64,000 nt of DNA from an uncultured Pelagibacteraceae bacterium. GTDB lineage: Bacteria; Pseudomonadota; Alphaproteobacteria; Pelagibacterales; Pelagibacteraceae. The stretch lies in assembly GCA_902551455.1 (NCBI GenBank), contig CACDDC010000002.1:21844-85843 (forward strand), in the 5' to 3' direction. This document shows, in pieces, positions 39,782-54,678 of the stretch. The position numbers and the translations under genes are program-made. The first letter of the stretch is position 1. Each line of letters starts with the position of its first letter. The notes under the pieces were generated by a model. It was not told the origin of the DNA and ran no database searches. It was given only the letters and a program-made list of their open reading frames with translations.

Positions 39782-40429
39782 ATGTTTTTAACTATAAAAA
39801 AAATCCCTATAAAAAGTTGGAGCTCTCCAAAACCTTTGAATTTTAAACCTAAAATACTAACTTTTTTTTATTTATGTTTAGGACTAACATTTTTTGGTCT
39901 TGGAGAAGGTTTATTGCTTGTTTCTTTAACCGGAGCTTCACCGTGGAGTGTACTAGCTCAAGGCATATCCTTACATATCAATTATTCAATTGGACTAATT
40001 ACTTTTTTTATAAGTTTATTTGTTATTTTTTTATGGATTTTTTTAAATCAAAAACCCGGAATAGGTACTATCCTTAATGCTGTAATAATTGCATTCATGA
40101 TTGATGTTTCTTTAACTTATATAAGCACACCTGAGAATTATTTTTTCAAAATCATTATGGCAATAATTGCAGTTTTGATTGTTGGCCTAGGAAGTGGATT
40201 TTACTTAATAGCTAATTTAGGTCCTGGGCCAAGAGATGGTTTAATGACAGGATTACAACGAAAAACAAATTTACCAATTGCATTAGTAAGGGCATTTCTG
40301 GAAATTTCCGTTGTTACCATAGGCTGGTATTTAGGCGGCAAAGTAGGTGCAGGAACATTGCTTTTCGCTTTTGGTGTAGGACCGAGTGTTGCACTTGGCT
40401 TGCTTATAGTAGGAAAATTATTTAAATAA
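39782..40429 (+). CDS. YczE/YitT-like membrane protein
   Basis: ANLGPGPRDGLMTGLQRKTNLPIALVRAFLEISVVTIGWYLGG. Confidence 0.75.
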   Translation: MFLTIKKIPIKSWSSPKPLNFKPKILTFFYLCLGLTFFGLGEGLLLVSLTGASPWSVLAQGISLHINYSIGLITFFISLFVIFLWIFLNQKPGIGTILNAVIIAFMIDVSLTYISTPENYFFKIIMAIIAVLIVGLGSGFYLIANLGPGPRDGLMTGLQRKTNLPIALVRAFLEISVVTIGWYLGGKVGAGTLLFAFGVGPSVALGLLIVGKLFK

Positions 40430-40435
40430 TTAATT

Positions 40436-41533
40436 ATGGCCAGTCTATTTAGAAAAATTTTTCCAAAAAGATTTAGTCCCTATTGGCAAAAAATAAAAGA
40501 AAACGAAAAATTAGATAAAGATATTAAATATATTACAGACTTATTTATAAATTCGGAGTCATATAAATATGTTTCAAATATGTGGCATATTATTAATATT
40601 TCTCACTATAAAAAAATACTAGAAAAGGGAATCGAAAATTATGGATCTGGAATTGCTCAGCAATATTTTACTTTTACAAATTACGAAGAAGATTATTTAA
40701 AAAAATTATTAAATAATCCTGAAGTAAAAAAAATAAATAAAAATAATTGTAATTTTAAAGTTCATGATGGTTTTACTTTAGATCAAAGTACTAATTATAA
40801 TTATTTATGTAAATTACTTTATGAATATTTTAAAAGTAATAATTATTTTGAATTTCTAAAAATTTTAAATGATAAAACGTACATTGGTTTTAATGATCCT
40901 TATATAACTTTAGACAGCATAAATATTACTACAGACAAAATCGTTTCATTATTAGACTTTGAAAAAATAAATAATTTTAAGGAAATTGAAAATAACAACA
41001 CCATACTTGAACTTGGAGCAGGATCAGGGAGGCTTTCAGAATGTATACTATCTTTAAGAAATAATATTAATTACACAATATGTGATATACCTCCGTCCAT
41101 ATATGTTTCTTATAAAAGGCTGAAGCTTGCATTCCCACAAAAAAAAATTTCGCTGTTAATTAATATAAATGATATAGATCAATTAACTAAACAAATTAAA
41201 AATAATGATATTTCATTTATTTTTCCCCATCAATTAAAATTTATAAAATCTAATTTTTATAATATGGCTTTAGCGGTAGATTGTTTACACGAAATGGATA
41301 AAAAAACTCTCAAATTATATTTTGAACTTATTTCTAATATCACAGAAAATTTTTATTTTTCTATTTGGTCCAAAACAAAAAATTGGTTTTCTGGAAAATT
41401 ATTTAAAAGAACAGAAGAATTAGTTTTTGAAAATGGAGATTATCCAATTCCAATATTTTGGAAAAATGTTTTTAAGGAAAACTTAGTATTTCCATCAAAT
41501 CAAATTGGCCTAGGATATAAATTTAAAAAATGA
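40436..41533 (+). CDS. Putative sugar O-methyltransferase
   Basis: ILELGAGSGRLSECIL SAM motif. Confidence 0.7.
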   Translation: MASLFRKIFPKRFSPYWQKIKENEKLDKDIKYITDLFINSESYKYVSNMWHIINISHYKKILEKGIENYGSGIAQQYFTFTNYEEDYLKKLLNNPEVKKINKNNCNFKVHDGFTLDQSTNYNYLCKLLYEYFKSNNYFEFLKILNDKTYIGFNDPYITLDSINITTDKIVSLLDFEKINNFKEIENNNTILELGAGSGRLSECILSLRNNINYTICDIPPSIYVSYKRLKLAFPQKKISLLININDIDQLTKQIKNNDISFIFPHQLKFIKSNFYNMALAVDCLHEMDKKTLKLYFELISNITENFYFSIWSKTKNWFSGKLFKRTEELVFENGDYPIPIFWKNVFKENLVFPSNQIGLGYKFKK

Positions 41534-41627
41534 TTTATTTATAAAAAGTAAAACAAATGTTGAAATTTCTTAGTTGATGAGAAATTCTAAAGGTGACTTA
41601 ATCTAATATTAGGTTTAAAATACCTTT

Positions 41628-41846
41628 ATGAAAAAATATTTTGAATATACAGACGCAGTTAGCAATAAGTTTTGGGAAATAAGCTTGAAAGGAAAACATG
41701 TACTAATTTCCTATGGAAGAATTGGAATTAAAAAGCCTGCAAAAATTGAAAAAATTTTTAAAGGTCAAACTGCTAGTGAAGATGCAAAAAAATTTGCTGA
41801 TTCAAAGATTAGAGAAAAGATAAATAAAGGTTATTTAGAAAAATAA
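41628..41846 (+). CDS. Stand-alone WGR domain protein
   Basis: FEYTDAVSNKFWEISLKGKHVLISYGRIGIKKPAKI. Confidence 0.85.
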   Translation: MKKYFEYTDAVSNKFWEISLKGKHVLISYGRIGIKKPAKIEKIFKGQTASEDAKKFADSKIREKINKGYLEK

Positions 41847-42040
41847 AAAAAACCCCCAAAACTTTCTTTCCGAGGGTTCTAATTTTGTTTAGTGTATGTT
41901 TTTAGAGTGTTCTCTAAATGGAAACGAATTACATTCACACACATATTCCGCCATTACTCACTTATTTAAGAACTTCATTGAGAAAACCCTCTAATTTAAA
42001 AGCAAGTTAAAAGATGATTTCATTGAAGAGTTGGGTTAGG
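41847..42040. repeat. Island boundary module R1 (hairpin 41853-41876; core 41928-41936; int-like frame 41918-42010)
   Basis: Near-identical to modules at 46.06, 47.91, 48.80 and 50.94 kb. Confidence 0.9.
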
Positions 42041-42047
42041 TTTGGAT

Positions 42048-42683
42048 ATGAAAGTAAGGGACCTTCTTAAAAAAGCGACTAAATTAAAAAAAGAAAATAA
42101 GGTTGAGGAAGCAATAAAAGTTTTAGATGAAGCGTATAAAAAAGGAATTTATGAACCTCCTTCATATGAAATGGAAGAGGATGAGGAATATACTGATTTT
42201 GATAAATTACTTTCTTTACAAGATTTAGTCAGAAAAGCAAAATATCTTCAAGAGGTTGGAAAAATAGATGAGTCACTTAAATATTTAGATGAATTAATTA
42301 AATCTACTTCTAGCAGAGCAAATTATAGTGTTTGGGAGATAGATGAACTTTCAAATATACATAATCATAAGGCAATAGTTTTAAAAAAAGAAAAGCGTTT
42401 TAATGAAGAGTTTATAGAAAGACTTAAATCTTATTGTTTAAGAGGTATTTCGGCAAATCTGAAATCTGCTAGTAAAGATAAGTTTTTAAGTAAAAATTTT
42501 ATCCCTGTTTTGAAACATATGTTGGATCCAGTAAAATTACTTAAATTTGTTGAAGATAATTCAAAAAAAACAACAATTAAGTTTGATAAAAGAGAAGTAG
42601 TAGGATTTGTTCAACTAGTTATAAATCAACATTATAAAACTGATAAGATTGGCATAGAATTTAAAAAATTAGTAAAAGGTTGA
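42048..42683 (+). CDS. TPR-like helical repeat protein
   Basis: KVRDLLKKATKLKKENKVEEAIKVLDEAYKKG...VRKAKYLQEVGKIDESLKYLDELIK. Confidence 0.7.
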   Translation: MKVRDLLKKATKLKKENKVEEAIKVLDEAYKKGIYEPPSYEMEEDEEYTDFDKLLSLQDLVRKAKYLQEVGKIDESLKYLDELIKSTSSRANYSVWEIDELSNIHNHKAIVLKKEKRFNEEFIERLKSYCLRGISANLKSASKDKFLSKNFIPVLKHMLDPVKLLKFVEDNSKKTTIKFDKREVVGFVQLVINQHYKTDKIGIEFKKLVKG

Positions 42684-42691
42684 ACTTGGGT

Positions 42692-45600
42692 ATGAAAAAT
42701 CTTTATTCTCCATCAATGCTTAAAAGTTATTTAAGTTGTAAGTATATAATTTTTAATGACATTTATGAGAAGAAATTAAAATTAAAAAAAATTGAATTAT
42801 CTAAAAATGATAAATTAAGACTTGAAAAAGGTAATGATCACGAAAAAAACTATCTTAAAGAACTTAAGAAGAAATATAAAAAAGTAATTGATATAAAAAA
42901 TTCTGATTTATCTAAAGAGGAGAAAATTTCCAAAACTATTCAATCAATGAAGGAAGGATGGGAAGTAATACATGGAGGTTATTTAAAAAGAGATAAATGG
43001 AGAGGTGAATTTGATTTTTTAATTATTAATAAAAATTTGAAGTCAAAGTTTGGTAATTATAGTTATGAAGTAATTGATACTAAAAATTCAAATAAACCAA
43101 AACCAGATCACATCATTCAATTGGGTATGTACACTTATATGTTAGAGGGTACCCAAGGCGTATTACCAAAAAAATTTACAATTGTTTTAAAAGATATGGT
43201 GAAGGAAGATGTTCAGGTTAATCAAGTAAATGAGTTTTTTAAAACACATAGAGAAAACTATGAAAAATTTACCTCAAACGGAATTGACAAAACAAAACCT
43301 GAGAAATGTAGTTTTTGTCAAATATGTTCATGGCAAGAGGAATGTGAAAAAATATGGATTAAAGAAGATAATCTAAATCAAGTAGGAGGATTAACAAGAG
43401 TTCATTTAAAAAAATTATTAGAAATTAAAATTAATAATGCTACTAAATTGTCAAAACAAGATTCTACTAAAATTCTTAAAGGATTTAGAAAAGAAATTTC
43501 ACATAAACTTATTACTCAAGCAAAACTTCAAAAAGAATATGAAAAAACCAACGTACCTGTTCATCAACCAAATCCTAATAATTTAAATGGTATTAAAGGA
43601 TTTAATTCATTACCAGAACCTACTGCTTGTGACTTATATTTTGATATTGAGAGTGTTGAAGATCATATTTATCCAGGTGGTTTAGAATATCTCTTTGGAA
43701 TTTATTATGTTGAAAATGATAAAGAAAAATTTAAAGCATTTTGGGCACATAATAAAGATGAAGAAAAAAAAAATGTTATTAATTTTTTTGAATTTACAAA
43801 ATCACATTTTAAAAAATATCCTTCATCTAAAATTTATCATTACGGTTCTTATGAAATCACAGCGTTGTTAAAACTTACCTCATTTCATAAAGTTAAAGGA
43901 ATTGAATATGATCATTATTTAAACTTAGATAAATTTGTAAATTTACTAAATGTAAATAAACAAGGACTATTCATTTCTGAAAATAGTTATTCATTAAAAA
44001 ATGTTGAAAAATTTTATGATTTTAAACGCGAAGGTGATGTTCAAAAAGGAGATGTATCCCAAGAATATTATAGTGAATGGATTGAGACTGAAGATCAAAA
44101 GTTTTTAGATGAAATAGAAAGTTATAATAAACAAGATTGTCGATCAACTTATGAACTTCATAAATGGTTATTGAAAATTAAACCATCAGATACCTCTTGG
44201 TTTGTTCCTCAAAGAAAAGATAGTGAAATGGAACTTAGAGATTGGGAAGTTGATATGTTGGCGTATCAAGACAAAGTTGAAAAATCAAAAATTAAAGATC
44301 CAAAAATTAAACAATTAATGTCAGATATTATTGGTTTCTATAATCGAGAAGATAAACCTGCTTGGCGTGAGTTTTTTGAGAGAAGAAATAACTCTGATGA
44401 AGAGTTAATTGATGATCCAGAATGTATTGGAAACATGAAATCTAATGGCAAACCTACTCCAGATAAGAGATCTTTAATTTATTCTTATAAATTTGAAGAT
44501 CAAGATTTTAAACTGAGAAAGAGTAAGAAAACTGTAATTGCTAACAATCAAGATATTGAACAAAAAGATTATGCGGGAACAATTATTGATATTGATTACA
44601 AAAAAAAAGAAGTTCTTTTAAAAAGAGGAACCTCGCAAGGAATATTGCCAGCAATTTTATCAATTGGTCCTGACAAACCAAGACCGAATACTAAACTTAT
44701 TTCAAATACTTATAAATTTATTGATACTCTTATTGGAAAGGAGAACAAATATAAGGCATTAAATGATTTTTTAGATAAAAAACATCCAAGAATAAAAGGA
44801 ATTAAAACAGGAGATAAAATTATTTCATCTGATGAATTTCATAAAGAAATTCCAAAAATAATTTCAAATTTAGATAATAGTTATCTTTACATTCAAGGAC
44901 CTCCAGGGACAGGAAAAACTTATCAAGCAGCAAACGCAATTATAGAATTATTAAAACAAAACAAAAAAATTGCGATAACTGGATTATCTCACAAAGTTAT
45001 TCATAACTTACTTCAAAGAATTGAAGATATGGCATCAGAAAAACAATTTGAGTTTGAAGGATATAAAAGAGGAACTCTTGAAGATGACGATACTGTTTTT
45101 AATGGTGAATATATTAAGACATATGAAAAAGATCCTGTGTTTATGAATGCTCTTAAGGAAAGAGATAAAGGACAAATATTTGCGGGTACAAAATATCATT
45201 TAGCAAGCACTTTTTATGATGAAAAAATTGATTATCTTTTTATAGATGAAACAGGACAACTTAGTTTAGCGGATTTAATAAGCATTGGAAATATTGCTAA
45301 AAATATAATTTTAATTGGTGATCAAAATCAATTAGGTCAACCTATTAGAGGAACTCATCCAAATGAGTCTGGTCAATCAATATTAGACTACCTATTAGAG
45401 GGAAAAGATACAATTTCTGAAGATAGAGGAATATTTTTAAATAAAACATATAGATTAAATTCTAAATTAAATGAATTTATCTCTTCTAATTTTTATGAAG
45501 AACGACTTATTTGTGACAAAAGCACAGATAAAAGAATAATAAATTTTAACAAAAAATCGAAAATCAAAGATAGTGGAATTCACTATATTGAAATGAATCA

Positions 45601-46054
45601 CAAAAATAATGTTCAAACAAGTATAGAAGAATTTGAAGTAATTAGAGATTTAATGAAAGAAATGATCGGACTTGAGTTTGATGATAAAGGAAAAAAAAGA
45701 AAATTATCTGTAGATGATTTTTTGATTATTAGTCCATATAATACCCAAGTAAATTTATTAATTTCAAAATTAGAAGAATCTAAAATTAAAAATCCTAGAG
45801 TAGGGACAATTGATAAGTTTCAAGGTCAAGAAGCACCTGTTACAATTATTTCTATGACATCATCAGATAGTGACTCTTTACCACGAAATAAAGAGTTTTT
45901 CTTTAGTAGAAATCGATTAAATGTTGCAATTTCTAGAGCGCAAGTAGCATCTATAATATTATTTAATCCAAATTTATTAGATAGTTCTCCAAAAAATTTA
46001 GATCAAATAAAGTTAATGAATAATTTTTTTAAATTACTCAATTATAAAATTTAA
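42692..46054 (+). CDS. RecB-like (TM0106/Cas4-type) nuclease + RNase H-like domain + SF1 helicase (Dna2/Upf1-like)
   Basis: C-x2-C...C Fe-S/Cas4-like CSFCQICSWQEEC; DLYFDIESVEDH; Walker A YIQGPPGTGKTYQAAN; DETGQLSLADLISIGNIAKNIILIGDQNQLGQP; VGTIDKFQGQEAPVTIISMTSS...NVAISRA. Confidence 0.9.
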   Translation: MKNLYSPSMLKSYLSCKYIIFNDIYEKKLKLKKIELSKNDKLRLEKGNDHEKNYLKELKKKYKKVIDIKNSDLSKEEKISKTIQSMKEGWEVIHGGYLKRDKWRGEFDFLIINKNLKSKFGNYSYEVIDTKNSNKPKPDHIIQLGMYTYMLEGTQGVLPKKFTIVLKDMVKEDVQVNQVNEFFKTHRENYEKFTSNGIDKTKPEKCSFCQICSWQEECEKIWIKEDNLNQVGGLTRVHLKKLLEIKINNATKLSKQDSTKILKGFRKEISHKLITQAKLQKEYEKTNVPVHQPNPNNLNGIKGFNSLPEPTACDLYFDIESVEDHIYPGGLEYLFGIYYVENDKEKFKAFWAHNKDEEKKNVINFFEFTKSHFKKYPSSKIYHYGSYEITALLKLTSFHKVKGIEYDHYLNLDKFVNLLNVNKQGLFISENSYSLKNVEKFYDFKREGDVQKGDVSQEYYSEWIETEDQKFLDEIESYNKQDCRSTYELHKWLLKIKPSDTSWFVPQRKDSEMELRDWEVDMLAYQDKVEKSKIKDPKIKQLMSDIIGFYNREDKPAWREFFERRNNSDEELIDDPECIGNMKSNGKPTPDKRSLIYSYKFEDQDFKLRKSKKTVIANNQDIEQKDYAGTIIDIDYKKKEVLLKRGTSQGILPAILSIGPDKPRPNTKLISNTYKFIDTLIGKENKYKALNDFLDKKHPRIKGIKTGDKIISSDEFHKEIPKIISNLDNSYLYIQGPPGTGKTYQAANAIIELLKQNKKIAITGLSHKVIHNLLQRIEDMASEKQFEFEGYKRGTLEDDDTVFNGEYIKTYEKDPVFMNALKERDKGQIFAGTKYHLASTFYDEKIDYLFIDETGQLSLADLISIGNIAKNIILIGDQNQLGQPIRGTHPNESGQSILDYLLEGKDTISEDRGIFLNKTYRLNSKLNEFISSNFYEERLICDKSTDKRIINFNKKSKIKDSGIHYIEMNHKNNVQTSIEEFEVIRDLMKEMIGLEFDDKGKKRKLSVDDFLIISPYNTQVNLLISKLEESKIKNPRVGTIDKFQGQEAPVTIISMTSSDSDSLPRNKEFFFSRNRLNVAISRAQVASIILFNPNLLDSSPKNLDQIKLMNNFFKLLNYKI

Positions 46055-46310
46055 AAAAAAACCCCCAAAACTTTCGTTCCGAGGGTTCTAATTTTGTTTA
46101 ATTTCTGTATTTAGAGTGTTCTGGTTGGGGAATCGTATTACATTCGCATACATTTATTGCCATTACTCACTTATTTAACTTCTTCACTGCAAACTTCACT
46201 GCAGAATCAGACGAAACGAGAAGGGTACGAGAAAGGTGACCTCGTACGCCACAAAGGCATTGATACCCATGTGCAAAAACTACTTTGATGACTTCATTGA
46301 GGAGTGGGGT
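46055..46310. repeat. Island boundary module R2 (hairpin 46062-46085; core 46137-46145; longest int-like frame 46124-46288)
   Basis: Sequence identity to the other modules; extra ~60 bp between GGTGAC and GATGAC not present in R1/R3/R5. Confidence 0.9.
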
Positions 46311-46378
46311 TAAAATGGGTTATGGAAAAAGAAACTCTAACATTAGTTACCACAGAAAAAATGAGTTAGGATTAATTT

Positions 46379-47905
46379 ATGACAAAATCTGCTTTATATT
46401 GCTTTTCATCTATTCCTCAAGCAGCGGCATCGGTTTATTTTTATGATTTTAATAAAGATAAAAATGATGGTTTAAAATACAAAGTAGAAGAAATTATTAA
46501 AATTTTAAAAGATAATAGTTTTAACCCATTGCAAACTAATTCTTATGATATTTCAAGTTTTGCAGATGGAGCATACCCATTTTATGTCAAAATTAATAAT
46601 AGCAAAAAGGTAGATACAATTTATTTTGAATTAAGGAATAGCTGCGGATGGGGATCGAGCATGTTTTTTGAGAGACCAGAAAGACTTGTTAAAGAGAGAG
46701 AAATGAAAAAAAATATGCCCGAAGGTTATCAATTGGATATGACGTTAGCACCAGCTATGGCAGTTAAATTTAAAACTAGAAACCGAAAAGGATATAATTC
46801 TCTAGAAAACTGGACAATAGACGGAAACGAATTTATTAAAAATAAAAAAGCAATAAAAAAAAGATTAGGTCGTCTACTTATTAGATCAAATTTAATTGTT
46901 TTAGATGATACTGGCAATATTGACAGACTAGATGAAAATATAGATAAAAAAAAAATATACAAAAAAGCAATTAAACAAACCAAGTACTATGGTGTTGATG
47001 ATGGTCTTTCTTTTGAAAGATTATACATACCCGTTAAAAACAAGTCCTACCCCGTTTATATACATCATATTTTTAGGTCAGAAAAAGAAGAATTGAAAGA
47101 TTTAGAGAGTGATTTACCTATTGCTGAATTTGTGTCGCCTATATTTCCAATTATATCCATACAAGATGTTGAGGGTTGCTATTTAAGCAAGGATAAAGAC
47201 GCTAAACTAATTTTTATTAAAAAAGAAGAGAAAAAAATAAGTGAATATTTAAGCAATCAAATCACTAAAAAAGAAAAAAATATTAAAGTATGTCAATTAG
47301 ATCTTGAAAATTTATCTTCCTTAACATTTTTAAATAAATTAAATTATAAATTAGATTCCATCACTTTTTTTAATTTAAAAAATATTGATGATTGGTCTCT
47401 TTTGTTAAAAATAAAAAATGTTAAAACTATATCATTTTATAAATGTAGCTTAGATATTACCAAAAAAATAAATGCAGATATTATAAAAAAAATAAATAAA
47501 CGAAATATTAATATTGTTATTGAAGGTCTTGTTACAAATTTAAATGTTAAATTGATTGAAATTCCTTTTGAAGGAGGCACTTATTCGGGAGAAATTAATT
47601 CTGATGGTATGCCCGAAGGTTATGGTCAGTTAAGTTATGAAGATGGAAGATTATATACTGGTACTTTTAAAGGAAAGTTTCATGGATTTGGATCTTATGT
47701 ATTGCCTAGTGGATCCGTTTATATCGGAGAATGGAAAAATGGAAATCAAGAAGGTTCTGCCATATTCACATCTAAAGATGGATTTAGATATGTAGGAAAA
47801 TTTAAAAATAACAAATATCATGGCAAAGGAGAATTTTATATTATGCAAACAGGTGAAAAAATTATAGTTGAACATAATGAAGGTGAAGAAATCAAAAAAA
47901 AATAA
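46379..47905 (+). CDS. Unknown N-terminal domain with C-terminal MORN repeats
   Basis: YSGEINSDGMPEGYGQLSYEDGRLYTGTFKGKFHGFGSYVLPSGSVYIGEWKNGNQEGS. Confidence 0.8.
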   Translation: MTKSALYCFSSIPQAAASVYFYDFNKDKNDGLKYKVEEIIKILKDNSFNPLQTNSYDISSFADGAYPFYVKINNSKKVDTIYFELRNSCGWGSSMFFERPERLVKEREMKKNMPEGYQLDMTLAPAMAVKFKTRNRKGYNSLENWTIDGNEFIKNKKAIKKRLGRLLIRSNLIVLDDTGNIDRLDENIDKKKIYKKAIKQTKYYGVDDGLSFERLYIPVKNKSYPVYIHHIFRSEKEELKDLESDLPIAEFVSPIFPIISIQDVEGCYLSKDKDAKLIFIKKEEKKISEYLSNQITKKEKNIKVCQLDLENLSSLTFLNKLNYKLDSITFFNLKNIDDWSLLLKIKNVKTISFYKCSLDITKKINADIIKKINKRNINIVIEGLVTNLNVKLIEIPFEGGTYSGEINSDGMPEGYGQLSYEDGRLYTGTFKGKFHGFGSYVLPSGSVYIGEWKNGNQEGSAIFTSKDGFRYVGKFKNNKYHGKGEFYIMQTGEKIIVEHNEGEEIKKK

Positions 47906-48110
47906 AAAAACCCCCGAAACTTTCATTCCGAGGGTTCTAATTTTGTTTAATTTTTGTATTTAGAGTGTTCTTGTTGGGGAATCGTATTACATTTACCTAT
48001 AAATTACGCCAATACTCACTTATTTAAGAAGTTCATTGAAAACTTCATTGAGAAAACCGTCTAATTTAAAAGCAATTCAAAAGATGATTTCATTGAGGAG
48101 TGGGGTTAAA
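47906..48110. repeat. Island boundary module R3 (hairpin 47911-47934; core 47986-47994; int-like frame 48003-48116)
   Basis: Sequence identity to the other modules. Confidence 0.9.
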
Positions 48111-48112
48111 GT

Positions 48113-48370
48113 ATGATGATGATAAAAGGCATATTTTTACTTATAAAATTTGGGTTTATTGGTTTCTTTAATGAATTGAGATTTTTATTTAAAGGTTTAT
48201 CTGAAATATTAATAAGTGGATTTGATAATTTAAATTATCATATTTTTCAACCCATCCGACTTTTAAGATTTGAGGATGTGAGGGATTTTGCTACTTCTAC
48301 TGAAGGAATAATAATTATAATTTTATGTTTTTTAATAATAATTTTTTTGATTTCTAAAAAAAGGTTTTAA
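48113..48370 (+). CDS. Small membrane protein, unknown
   Basis: 85 aa, C-terminal TM IIIIILCFLIIIFLISKKRF, sits directly after module R3. Confidence 0.5.
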   Translation: MMMIKGIFLLIKFGFIGFFNELRFLFKGLSEILISGFDNLNYHIFQPIRLLRFEDVRDFATSTEGIIIIILCFLIIIFLISKKRF

Positions 48371-48372
48371 AC

Positions 48373-48765
48373 TTATTTTTCGAACTCTTTTTTTATTGGA
48401 GTAAAATATAAAAAGACTAGTATTGCACCACTAGTCGCCCACCCCAATCCATCAATCAAATAAAGTATTGGGTCAGAAGCATTTATTCCCATCAATAAAG
48501 AATATATTGATCCAAAAATAAATAGGAATAGATACATTTGTTTTCCAATATTTTTAAATTTATATAATAGATATAAGTTTACCAAGTAAAACACCAAAAA
48601 AATTATTGCAATTACCCCAAGCATATCAGTCATGTCATTTGGTGGATTTGCACTCTCATTAAAAGCAACAACTATTTCAGACTCATAAAAAATGGAAATA
48701 ATTGCCAATATCAATATCGATAAATCTAATAGAATAAGTCTTTTAAATATTATTTTTAAATTCAT
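48373..48765 (-). CDS. Small integral membrane protein, unknown
   Basis: 4 TM segments; only minus-strand island gene. Confidence 0.6.
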   Translation of the reverse strand: MNLKIIFKRLILLDLSILILAIISIFYESEIVVAFNESANPPNDMTDMLGVIAIIFLVFYLVNLYLLYKFKNIGKQMYLFLFIFGSIYSLLMGINASDPILYLIDGLGWATSGAILVFLYFTPIKKEFEK

Positions 48766-48797
48766 TCTGATTGAAAGAGTACTATATTTATGAATAA

Positions 48798-49005
48798 AAA
48801 AAACCCCCGAAACTTTCGTTCCGAGGGTTCTAATTTTGTTTAGTGTATGTATTTAGAGTGTTCTCTAAATGGAAACGTATTACATTCGCATTCCTAGTAC
48901 GCCAATACTCACTTATTTAAGAAGTTCATTGCAAAGTTCATTGCAGAATCACCCCAAATAGAAAGCAAATAGAAAGGTGACTTGATTTAAAAAAAAAGTT
49001 AAGAT
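48798..49005. repeat. Island boundary module R4 (hairpin 48804-48827; core 48879-48894; int-like frame 48869-48961)
   Basis: Core ATTACATTCGCATTCC matches groEL end ATTACATTCCCATTCC 15/16. Confidence 0.9.
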
Positions 49006-49016
49006 TCATAAAATTT

Positions 49017-50039
49017 ATGACAGAACCATTCTCCGAAAAGGAAATGCAGGCAATATACTTGAGAGTTATTCAAGAATTTAAGTATAAAAAATTAGAGATA
49101 GATAAAAAGTTAGATGAGATTGTAAATAAAAAAATCGCTAAAATTGAAAAAGATTGTAAAAAATTTAAAGATGGCATTCTTTATTTTGGAAATGGTTATG
49201 TAGGTGAAAAAAATAAAAATGGAATGCCCGAGGGAATGGGCAGTCTTCTTTTTGGTTCAACAGAAGATGTTTATGTTGGTCAATTTGATAGTGGATTAAA
49301 ACATGGTTTAGGCAAATATACTTATTTTAGTGGAGGTGGGAGTGCTCATCATCCATTTTCAATTCCTTATTATGTCGGTGAATGGTTTGCAGACTCATAT
49401 CACGGACTTGGAAAACATTTAATTACTCAATTTGAAGATCTTATGATTTATGAGGGCACACACACTCATGATAAAAAAACTGGATTTGGAACTTATAAAA
49501 AATTTAATAGCGATAACGTTGATAAATTCTGTAATACTGAAATGATAGGATATTTTTTTGATGGTGTTGGTGATAAATTAATGATTGAAATTAATAGAGA
49601 TGATAACGGCAATTTATCACAAGATACTATAAGTGGTCTTTTTGAATATAATCAAGAAAATGGAACAAAAAATCCTATGTATGTATTTACTAAAATAGAT
49701 GAATGGGAAAATCTTGAACCAAAGAAAATGGATAAGTCAATATCAGATTTAATTTATAAACTTTATGATTCTTATTTTAATTTAGACCCATTTACAAAAA
49801 AATTTTCAGATCTTACAATAAAGGTTAAAAAAAATGTGATGAAATTGATGTTTGACTCTAACAAATATTTTGAAAAAAATTCAGAAGATGAAAATTATTT
49901 CAAATTTCTTCAAAAAGTAAACAGTTTAAACAAAGTTGTCACACAAATTGGCGAAAATGAAAAGTTAATTGAATTAAACGAAATGGTTGAAAAAGAAAAA
50001 AAAGAATTTGTTTCAATAGAAAAAAAACTTAAGTCATAA
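49017..50039 (+). CDS. MORN-repeat protein
   Basis: YVGEKNKNGMPEGMGSLLFGSTEDVYVGQFDSGLKHGLGKYTYF. Confidence 0.8.
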   Translation: MTEPFSEKEMQAIYLRVIQEFKYKKLEIDKKLDEIVNKKIAKIEKDCKKFKDGILYFGNGYVGEKNKNGMPEGMGSLLFGSTEDVYVGQFDSGLKHGLGKYTYFSGGGSAHHPFSIPYYVGEWFADSYHGLGKHLITQFEDLMIYEGTHTHDKKTGFGTYKKFNSDNVDKFCNTEMIGYFFDGVGDKLMIEINRDDNGNLSQDTISGLFEYNQENGTKNPMYVFTKIDEWENLEPKKMDKSISDLIYKLYDSYFNLDPFTKKFSDLTIKVKKNVMKLMFDSNKYFEKNSEDENYFKFLQKVNSLNKVVTQIGENEKLIELNEMVEKEKKEFVSIEKKLKS

Positions 50040-50053
50040 TAAAAATATTTCTT

Positions 50054-50308
50054 ATGAATTCTCAAGAGTTAGAAAGTAAATATCAATCACTACTTGATAG
50101 AATTGAGTTAATTAAAAAAAAGGTATATCTCAGACATACTATTGAATTGTTAGATCAACTTAGAGAATTTTGCTCAAAAAAAAAAGAAACTGACGCCTTT
50201 ACAACAGAGATTTATGAGCAACAAAATAAAAATCTTGATAAAATTGAAAGCATGAATGATGATGTAATGGGTGAAATGAAAGATGCTTTAAATAAAACTA
50301 AAAAATAA
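50054..50308 (+). CDS. Small coiled-coil protein, unknown
   Basis: 84 aa, same strand between two MORN genes. Confidence 0.6.
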   Translation: MNSQELESKYQSLLDRIELIKKKVYLRHTIELLDQLREFCSKKKETDAFTTEIYEQQNKNLDKIESMNDDVMGEMKDALNKTKK

Positions 50309-50312
50309 ACTT

Positions 50313-50936
50313 ATGAAAAAAACTTGGATATCAGATAATAAAACTCAAAAATATATTGGTGAATTCGATGGAGAAAAAAAACACGGAGAAGGAACTTATA
50401 TCTGGGAAGGAATGGGTGAGGTTTCAGGTAAATTTAAAGATGACCAATTTCCTGACTACGGAAAATTTATTCAATATGGACAATTTGAATATATCGGTGA
50501 AATGAAGAACCGCGATGGGCAGTTTAATGGAAAAGGAATTCAAATAAATTTAATTACAAAAGATAAATATGAAGGTGAATTTAAAGATGGAGCACCTCAT
50601 GGATATGGAGTGTTTACTCAAAACGATGGTTCAACTTTTAAAGGTAATTGGAAGAACGGTTTAAAGCATGGTAAAGGAACTTTAGTAAACGCAATATTTT
50701 TTAGGAGTGGTGAAGAAAAAGGTGAAGAATTTATAATGGATGGTGGTCCTCAAACTGGAGAATACAAAGATGACTTACCAGTTGGAGAATTTCATTGGGA
50801 AATGAAAAGTGGAAGAAAATATATCGGTGAATTAAATAAAGATGGACTTTTTCATGGTAAAGGAACTTTAACACATCCTGATGGAAAAATTGAAAAAGGT
50901 ATTTGGGAAAATTGCAAACTTATTAAATCAAAATAA
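50313..50936 (+). CDS. MORN-repeat protein
   Basis: KYEGEFKDGAPHGYGVFTQNDGSTFKGNWKNGLKHGKGTLV. Confidence 0.85.
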   Translation: MKKTWISDNKTQKYIGEFDGEKKHGEGTYIWEGMGEVSGKFKDDQFPDYGKFIQYGQFEYIGEMKNRDGQFNGKGIQINLITKDKYEGEFKDGAPHGYGVFTQNDGSTFKGNWKNGLKHGKGTLVNAIFFRSGEEKGEEFIMDGGPQTGEYKDDLPVGEFHWEMKSGRKYIGELNKDGLFHGKGTLTHPDGKIEKGIWENCKLIKSK

Positions 50937-51150
50937 AAAAAACCCCCGAAACTTTCGTTCCGAGGGTTCTAATTTTGTTTAGTGTATGTATTTAGAGTGT
51001 TCTCTAAATGGAAACGTATTACATTCTCATACTGGTTTCTAATAATACTTGATTTACTTAACATTTTGAAAATTCCTTCATCACTCTTCATCACTATTTA
51101 AAGCAATTTCAAAGCAATTCAAAAGATGATTTTATTGAGGAGTAAGGTTA
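50937..51150. repeat. Island boundary module R5 (hairpin 50943-50966; core 51018-51026)
   Basis: Sequence identity to the other modules. Confidence 0.9.
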
Positions 51151-51169: not shown

Positions 51170-51970
51170 ATGCTCGAATGGGATAATAGAATAAAATACA
51201 ATTTCAATTATTTAAAAAAAAATATTGATATTAAAAAATTCCTAAAATTAGTGACTAAATATAAATGGAATTTTAATCATGAAACAGATATTTTAGATGG
51301 AGCAGTAATCCCTAGTTGTATAAACAAAAATAATAAAGATCCTAATTTAATTAAAAGTTTAAATTTTGAAAAGTCTTCTACAGAAGAAATCTTAAACGAG
51401 GCATTTTCCAGTTCTGATTTCGATCAAAAACTTTTTGAAAATGGAACATTTTTTAAAAAATTGCACCCTAATTTTAAATTAACAAAGCATATAAAATTAG
51501 GTGATCAGTCTCCCATTTTCATGCCAGAGGAGATAGTAGATCAAGATACAGAGTTATATAAATTGAAGAATCAAGTAGATGGGAACTTTCCACCATTTTG
51601 GATTTCACCTTTTTTACAGGATGTAGTGGATGGAACTTCTGTTTGTTCACATTCCCTTATAGAAATAAAAAATGATAATACTTATTTTTATATGCACACT
51701 GTTTATTTTGATCAAGAAGGATATGATTATCAATACGATCCTTACTTAATAAATTTATTTGATCATAAATTAAATGATAAAAGTTTTTTGGATGAAATTA
51801 TAAATTTCGAACAAAAAAGAGTTGAGTCAGATCGTAAGAATTTTAAAGATTATTTGAAAGAATATAATAGTGAAGCAAAATTAATAAATATTTATCGTAT
51901 AGACTTCAAAACCAAGAAACCGATTTATAACTTTAGTAAATCTGGTAAGTTTATTAATATAAGCAAGTAG
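51170..51970 (+). CDS. Orphan protein, unknown function
   Basis: 266-aa ORF with coding-like composition; no family recognised. Confidence 0.6.
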   Translation: MLEWDNRIKYNFNYLKKNIDIKKFLKLVTKYKWNFNHETDILDGAVIPSCINKNNKDPNLIKSLNFEKSSTEEILNEAFSSSDFDQKLFENGTFFKKLHPNFKLTKHIKLGDQSPIFMPEEIVDQDTELYKLKNQVDGNFPPFWISPFLQDVVDGTSVCSHSLIEIKNDNTYFYMHTVYFDQEGYDYQYDPYLINLFDHKLNDKSFLDEIINFEQKRVESDRKNFKDYLKEYNSEAKLINIYRIDFKTKKPIYNFSKSGKFINISK

Positions 51971-52009
51971 AAGGGTGACTTTATTTAAAAAGTAGGGTTA
52001 AATTCAAAT

Positions 52010-52576
52010 GTGAAGAAATATCATTTTACATTAGATTATTTTAAACAAAATTTTAAATATAGAAATTTTTGTGAAGATTTAGATTATGTAATAAAGAACC
52101 AAATATTAGATTATCCAATCGATGCTATAATTTTACACCATACAATTTTTGATAAAGTAGGTAAATTTATGACCCCAACTAAAATTGATGAAAATTACCA
52201 AGAGACCGATTGGGACAAATATTCTGAAAAAGTAGATAATGAATTTTTCGATAATAAAAAAAATAAAAAATTTAAAGATTGGTTTTTAAAAAAAAGAGAC
52301 TCAGGATTATTGTTAACTTCCTTAAATAGTAATTTTACATTAATTCATAATTTAAATATTGGATTTCAGTATTTTTCATTAATATATTCTAAATTTAATA
52401 ATAAATATTATTTTTTTGAAACTTGGGAAGAGTGGCACATTGCCAGAAATTCTTTTAGTAAAGAACCATCAAAAGACAAAATAATAGAAATGATTAAAAA
52501 AAAGTATAAAGACTCAGACCCAAAAATAGAATTAAGTGTATTTGAAGAGGATTTTAATGATTTTTTAAACAATTAA
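52010..52576 (+). CDS. Orphan protein, unknown function
   Basis: 188-aa ORF, GTG start; no family recognised. Confidence 0.55.
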   Translation: MKKYHFTLDYFKQNFKYRNFCEDLDYVIKNQILDYPIDAIILHHTIFDKVGKFMTPTKIDENYQETDWDKYSEKVDNEFFDNKKNKKFKDWFLKKRDSGLLLTSLNSNFTLIHNLNIGFQYFSLIYSKFNNKYYFFETWEEWHIARNSFSKEPSKDKIIEMIKKKYKDSDPKIELSVFEEDFNDFLNN

Positions 52577-52599
52577 ATTTAAAGATTATTTAGATATCC

Positions 52600-52630
52600 T
52601 TCATCATTCCTTCATCATTCCTTCATCACT
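52600..52630. repeat. 11-bp tandem repeat (TTCATCATTCC x ~2.8)
   Basis: Directly visible; similar to TTCCTTCATCACTCTTCATCAC in module R5. Confidence 0.8.
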
Positions 52631-52657
52631 AATGATTTTCGTTAAGATAAAAAAAAA

Positions 52658-52675
52658 GGGCAGTAAAAACTGCCC
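52658..52675. terminator. groEL terminator GGGCAGTAAAAACTGCCC
   Basis: Stem with A-tract/T-tract on both sides (bidirectional). Confidence 0.85.
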
Positions 52676-52706
52676 TTTTTGAATTTTTGTTTGAGAGTAA
52701 TGGGGA

Positions 52707-54377
<1,671 letters not shown>

Positions 54378-54387
54378 TTAATATTTA

Positions 54388-54678
54388 TTATTTACTTGAT
54401 ATACCCATAATGTCAGATTCCTTCATTATGCTGTATTCCTTACCATCTATTTTTACTTCAGTACCTGACCATTTTCCAAATAGAACTTTATCTCCAACTT
54501 TTACGTCCATTGGTATAATTTTTCCGTCTTCAGTCTTAGATCCACCCCCAACAGCAACAACTTTGCCTTCTTGAGGTTTTTCTTGTGCGGTGTCTGGTAT
54601 TATTATTCCACCAGCAGTCTTTTCACTGCTGTCTAAAACTTCTATAAGCACTCTGTCGTGCAAAGGTTTAAACTTCAT
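54388..54678 (-). CDS. groS: Co-chaperonin GroES
   Basis: [40 protein letters not shown]. Confidence 0.98.

Follow-up and report, generated by a model that had tools for sequence, protein, structure and literature searches.

Small gene cassettes probably inserted site-specifically at the 3′ end of groEL in SAR11 bacteria

SAR11 bacteria rank with the most abundant cells of the ocean and have very small genomes, the hypervariable regions of which have been described without a clear mechanism. Here we analysed 64,000 nucleotides (nt) of DNA from an uncultured Pelagibacteraceae bacterium of this group (contig CACDDC010000002.1, positions 21,844 to 85,843; hereafter the window) and found five repeated intergenic modules that are very probably the junctions of small, non-autonomous integrative cassettes, inserted site-specifically and stacked at the 3′ end of groEL. 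Such stacking would give very streamlined genomes a concrete route of gene acquisition, through an insertion hotspot located where the transcript of an essential gene ends, without harm to that gene. The docking site is defined and its empty and filled states can be read in any SAR11 genome, so the traffic of accessory genes can be counted.

Module anatomy and the groEL anchor

A repeat finder returned five direct copies of the module between 41842 and 51150, all in one orientation (Table 1), and thereby bears out an earlier note, made from the sequence of the window, that five same-orientation modules divide unrelated cargo. Compared with a reference copy, the copies are 84–99% identical across a 99-nt stretch, and four can be aligned over 191 nt. 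The note's description of the modules as near-identical does not hold for the right half of copy 5 (50932), which has in common with the others only the left half and the core; its right arm reads TCATACTGGTTTC...TTCATCACTCTTCATCAC, not CACTTATTTAAGAAGTTCATTG. Copy 1 is shorter by one TTCATTG repeat (12 nt); in copy 2, around 85 additional nt precede the GATGACTTCATTGAGGAG block. Every copy was said to follow the 3′ end of a gene; copy 4 departs from this, as the gene to its left (48373–48765) is on the minus strand and presents its 5′ end. The system is also wider than the 41847–51150 interval first proposed: its last cassette reaches groEL at 52706, which places the anchor 1.7 kilobases (kb) past the last module, and a sixth, eroded left-end trace lies at around 41590–41625. 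Beyond the five copies, the genome contains one 37-nt, 76% match on another contig and nothing else, and the modules are therefore neither chance repeats nor a dispersed repetitive extragenic palindromic (REP) element. The window had no Rfam matches, and a tRNA as the target was rejected, as the window contains no tRNA.

Each module consists of two half-sites joined at an 8-bp core, TTACATTC. The key that the earlier note lacked is the source of these parts: the core is the stop-codon end of groEL, the hairpin is a terminator serving groEL, and groEL anchors the array. In SAR11 relatives, the core ATTACATTC matches, in reverse complement, the groEL end ...GAATGTAAT, with stop codon TAA, and in most carrier genomes the last copy, read in module orientation, runs directly into the GGM-repeat codons of the opposite strand. 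All five window copies have AGAGTGTTCT 25 nt to the left of the core. The hairpin of the left half, which we term A1, folds at −15 to −21 kcal/mol on the groEL strand, where a T run follows, and at −5 to −10.5 kcal/mol on the opposite strand. In a set of 29 distinct hairpins, the groEL strand forms 312 of 318 base pairs and the other strand 256 of 318, a difference that reflects G–U pairs turning into C–A mismatches. Given this strong intrinsic terminator fold on the groEL strand, we identify A1 as a groEL 3′ untranslated region (UTR) and terminator. We fetched 150 groEL loci from relatives, 112 of which were chosen regardless of the presence of modules; groEL keeps a hairpin and T run within 110 nt of its end in all 150, whatever DNA is inserted. 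At one locus (L073, genome G015), the groEL end has a hybrid 3′ UTR that combines the native hairpin GGGCAGTAAAAACTGCCC with the A1 arm GTTTAGTG...AGAGTGTTCT, as would result from a terminator swap inside the UTR.

Half-site exchange, docking site and cassette order

Joints at the 150 loci were classified by their left half (A1; native-type, with GGGCAGTAAAAACTGCCC; or another terminator) and by their right half (groEL; B1, beginning CACTTATTTAAGAAGTTCATTG; B2, TCATACTGG... with TTCATCAC repeats; or B3, a short groEL-like stretch). groEL follows a native-type half at 51 joints (the empty site), another terminator at 31 and A1 at 18. The remaining A1 halves lead into B1 (10), B2 (9) or B3 (3); B1 is also joined to native-type (8) and other (6) terminators and B2 to one of each, with a few unclassified sites, chance matches among them, in addition to these counts. 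This four-way exchange of halves at the core is the pattern of attB, attP, attL and attR in conservative site-specific recombination, with native|groEL in the place of attB, native|B of attL, A1|B of attP and A1|groEL of attR.

The B halves carry rigidly spaced direct repeats. Paired TTCATTG repeats (TTCATTGnnnnnTTCATTG) begin 45 nt to the right of the core or, about one helical turn on, at 55–56 nt, and GATGACTT lies 50–51 nt beyond them in nearly all of 33 cases. Lambda-type att sites have arm-type integrase binding, and the spacing seen here suggests binding of the same kind. Behind the B1 end, a stretch of GATGACTT...GGGTTAAAAT frequently leads to a gene start; with TAAAAT as its second element, it can be read as a −35/−10 pair with 17-bp spacing, and thus as a putative promoter.

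The gene after groEL in the 150 loci is typA, a YitT/YczE-like gene or another conserved gene. Among the 112 unselected loci, 69 are empty, with at most 300 bp separating groEL and the next conserved gene, and the other 43 have extra DNA; at 12.3 kb, the window island is the largest among the groEL loci compared. Of 300 genomes scanned in the genus, 49 had some match and around 28 had strong ones, and an exact-pattern scan found 19 more named SAR11 stretches. groEL lies beside the array, on the same contig, in 26 of the 28 strong carriers; of the other two, one has the usual left neighbour of groEL next to its array at a contig end, and the second is unassigned. Locus L037 was placed at groEL once more sequence was fetched. 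Across the order, matches were found in 24 of 150 high-quality genomes, from three genera.

On a tree of the groEL 3′ coding sequence, the 31 A1 carriers among 150 rows require 29 changes, and between the genus of the window and another genus (L263) an 85-nt stretch of the UTR is 89–93% identical, compared with 74–76% for groEL DNA. On sequence comparison, this scatter and this gap in identity indicate horizontal transfer across genera. Cassettes also differ in position. The cassette at 48373–48879 adjoins groEL in L068 and L045 and is internal in L040, and DNA similarity stops precisely at the core; the cassette at 48880–51018 starts exactly at the core in L062, where its first part recurs adjoining groEL. 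The shuffling of cassette order across SAR11 genomes, which the earlier note had put forward for checking, is evident in these four loci.

The cargo is listed in Table 1. At 51961–52006, ahead of the last cassette's second gene, there is also a core-less B1-like tail (AAGGGTGACTTTATTTAAAAAGTAGGGTTAAATTC), perhaps the trace of a fused older cassette.

Table 1. Features of the groEL-anchored array, in window coordinates
Feature	Position	Strand	Evidence or remark
YitT/YczE-like membrane protein, left chromosomal flank	39782–40429	+	Abuts groEL directly in the empty sites of L079, L103, L111 and L114
NanM-like putative sugar O-methyltransferase, between flank and first module	40436–41533	+	TIGR04371, 2.5e-24
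B1-end trace AAGGTGACTTAATCTAATATTAGGTTTAAAATA without core, eroded left end of first cassette	41590–41625	+	
Cargo: 72-amino-acid (aa) WGR-domain protein	41628–41846	+	PF05406, 1.3e-11
Module 1: A1 terminator half, core TTACATTC at 41929–41936, B1 half minus one TTCATTG repeat	41842–42040
Cargo span with two open reading frames (ORFs)	42042–46054	+
Weak TPR-like ORF	42042–42683	+
1124-aa TM0106-type RecB-like nuclease/superfamily 1 helicase	42680–46054	+	PADLOC MkoA/MkoC-like (Mokosh-like similarity)
Module 2: A1 half, core at 46138–46145, B1 half with ~85-nt insertion	46051–46330
Cargo: 508-aa MORN-repeat protein	46379–47905	+	PF02493, 1.5e-11
Module 3: A1 half, core at 47987–47994, B1 half	47900–48112
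Cargo: small plus-strand ORF, then minus-strand membrane protein (48373–48765)	48113–48765
Module 4: A1 half, core at 48880–48887, B1 half	48793–49008
Cargo: MORN-repeat proteins (49017–50039 and 50313–50936) with an 84-aa ORF between them (50054–50308)	49017–50936	+
Module 5: A1 half, core at 51019–51026, different right half B2 with TTCATCAC repeats	50932–51150
Cargo of groEL-proximal cassette, two proteins	51170–52576	+	Without Pfam, NCBIfam or PADLOC match
groEL-proximal half-site: CTTCATCA repeats (52598–52629) and native-type terminator hairpin GGGCAGTAAAAACTGCCC (52658–52675)	52598–52706		Hairpin serves minus-strand groEL
groEL core TTACATTC	52707–52714	−	Last GroEL codons and stop, attB-like
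groEL, anchor gene, intact	52707–54365	−
groES	54388–54678	−

Proposed mechanism, recombinase and alternatives

We propose that a cassette begins with a core and the att repeats of the right arm (B), in many cases followed by an outward promoter; one to three genes come next, then a groEL-directed terminator with the left arm (A), and a core. A trans-acting, site-specific recombinase would insert the cassette, as a circle, into the core TTACATTC formed by the last codons and stop codon of groEL. The GroEL protein would remain unchanged, and the A end of the cassette would become the new 3′ UTR and terminator of groEL. Older cassettes, together with the old terminator, would be displaced outward, leaving the newest cassette beside groEL; this order is suggested by the joints, which have the native terminator at the far end and A1 at groEL. 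The recombinase is fairly likely to act in trans and, from the geometry of the sites, to be of the tyrosine type. More tentatively, SAR11 may possess a cassette system of its own, in which integrase-free cassettes with replacement groEL terminators are moved by a trans-acting recombinase and exchanged across genera: an independently evolved analogue of the integron that docks at groEL.

Several observations weigh against the proposed insertion of cassettes at groEL. No recombinase was found in any groEL island: the window has no integrase, and a profile built from 12 SAR11 integrases found none at the 150 groEL loci. The sole tyrosine recombinase in most genomes is an enzyme encoded near glycosyltransferase genes, without linkage to groEL. 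Copies of either half were absent from phage, plasmid and viral collections, and no circular form or virus-borne copy was seen. The groEL-nearest cassette of the window ends in a native-type terminator, and the pairing of B2 with this native-type end (A2) rests on few other loci. Homologous recombination between the 100–190-bp repeats could be an alternative mover of cassettes. Finally, two arrays lie away from groEL. In L051 (5967–7485; CACIBQ010000014.1), a cassette with A1 and B1 ends is located between atpC and rppH, with a 20-nt groEL-like stretch directly behind the rppH stop codon; native atpC–rppH borders lack this stretch, which therefore arrived with the insertion. The array of L047 and L052, on a 28-kb contig, is inside an island that has an intact tRNA-Met at one end and a tRNA-Met fragment at the other. 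Cassettes are thus able to ride elsewhere, and the short groEL-like stretch of these arrays is not fully explained by our model.

Other readings of the array were considered. An ordinary terminator or REP-like repeat, copied between genes as a common intergenic terminator with no role in mobility, is extremely improbable: the left half is truly a strong terminator on the groEL strand, but the genome has only five clustered copies, carriers are linked to groEL, and such a repeat accounts neither for the right halves nor for the exchange of halves exactly at the core. The earlier note had named such an element, at unrelated loci and with no link to groEL, as the finding that would count against it; when tested, this failed on the 26 of 28 strong carriers with arrays at groEL, and linkage and half-site exchange together refute the terminator reading. 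A true mobile integron, with attC cassettes and an IntI-type integrase, has a similar layout of small cassettes, a repeated site, one orientation and variable order. It is nonetheless almost certainly the wrong reading and was rejected on attC and IntI: the RYYYAAC...GTTRRRY pair is absent from modules 1–4 and the one pair in module 5 spans unrelated sequence, neither IntI nor any other tyrosine recombinase was found in the islands, the site derives from groEL, and a promoter-like B end is frequent among the cassettes. The note's observation that no known attC structure or intact integrase gene is visible in the window accordingly stands, with no attC signature in four of the five modules; the likeness to an integron or element array that it saw survives as a cassette array—with precise boundaries, variable order and unrelated cargo—and not as an integron. 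Homologous recombination alone would exchange cassettes through flanking groEL and A1 sequence and enlarge the array by unequal crossing-over between modules, which share 100–190 nt; recombination between flanking homologies has been proposed for hypervariable region 2 (HVR2) of SAR11 (PMC2217521). We consider this quite improbable, as the native|B1 and native|B2 joints share only around 8–9 nt with the empty native|groEL site, too short for RecA, and fixed arm spacing would be unexpected. These joints speak against a founding role for homologous recombination, which may act in the later shuffling or deletion of cassettes.

Two enzymes were weighed as the recombinase. The integrase of the tRNA-Met element (L047, 6216–7166; relatives in L136–L139) would make the adjoining site an integron-like platform, and in L047 its stop codon is followed directly by a groEL-like core, A1 and a series of cassette modules; one of the carriers (genome G010) also encodes a relative. 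This candidate is unlikely, given that relatives have no groEL-like core behind them, that only 12 of 300 genomes encode one (E ≤ 1e-25) and that the element lies between a tRNA-Met and a tRNA-Met fragment, which makes that site the probable target of its integrase. Rather unlikely, too, is that a near-universal tyrosine recombinase of around 325 aa, encoded near glycosyltransferase genes, acts in trans at groEL. Most carriers and most well-assembled genomes have no other PF00589 protein, and a search of 27 carrier genomes, most of them incomplete, found no serine recombinase (PF00239, resolvase family). However, it is equally common in cassette-free genomes (carriers usually have one such protein, as do nearly all of 24 well-assembled genomes, which are mostly cassette-free), no A1, B1 or core sequence lies beside its gene, and its N-terminal part is a plain SAM-like domain, in contrast to the arm-type binding suggested by the layout of the sites. 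In the host genome, the single PF00589 gene is on another contig; this genome is 79% complete, so a recombinase encoded elsewhere could be missing from the assembly.

Other integration contexts were noted as well. The tRNA-Met island, of around 18.6 kb and with its own integrase, is present in L047, L052 and L255 (CAJQRZ010000039.1), with the array directly behind the integrase gene. The tyrosine recombinase of around 325 aa was read near glycosyltransferase genes in L135, L148–L152 and L246–L248, and occurs in nearly every well-assembled Pelagibacter genome searched. Further SAR11 integrases adjoin phosphoribosyltransferase/MTA phosphorylase genes (L140–L142, with tRNA-Met in L141 and L142) or tmRNA (L145 and L146), which suggests additional integration hotspots. 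Three viral contigs have a groEL-like tail.

Relation to known integrative systems

We found no description of groEL cassettes in SAR11 in the open-access papers that our searches returned; a 2007 study of SAR11 hypervariable regions reported an integrase gene in HVR2 but no attC (PMC2217521). An element that inserts at the groEL 3′ end and leaves the protein unaltered, as in the window, is known from staphylococcal phage-inducible islands, which have the last 18 bp of the gene in their att site (PMC8125051). Those islands are larger phage satellites that have their own integrase and packaging relations with helper phages, and usually occur singly; the SAR11 cassettes are 0.9–4.2 kb in length, integrase-free, stacked six deep and from an unrelated phylum. 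The window cargo includes no integrase or excisionase and no phage-interference genes, and no groEL locus has an integrase. Tycheposons of Prochlorococcus and relatives (PMC10872708) are likewise cargo-rich integrative elements of streamlined marine hosts with short 3′-end targets, but they target tRNAs, span 4–200 kb and encode a tyrosine recombinase, whereas the SAR11 cassettes target groEL, span 1–4 kb and encode none.

With integron cassettes, the array shares small cassettes, a common recombination site, variable order at one site and a recombinase outside the cassette; it differs in lacking attC and intI and in having a groEL-derived site, arm repeats and, often, a promoter-like end and a terminator. 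Additive flexible genomic islands, such as fGI-2 of Methylophilaceae at tRNA-Lys, are marked by recurring target-gene ends (PMC10872708), and the window island resembles them in being variable, in repeated insertion at one integration site and in copies of the target 3′ end at its joints. fGI-2-type islands vary greatly in size, repeat the terminal ~20 bp of the target gene, carry mostly unknown cargo and occupy a streamlined aquatic host. In SAR11, by contrast, the target is a protein-coding gene rather than a tRNA, the joints include the terminator of the target gene and fixed arm repeats, and the full set of att half-site combinations is present. The array thus functions like an integron or an additive island; it is not an integron, and is a new variant within the additive islands.

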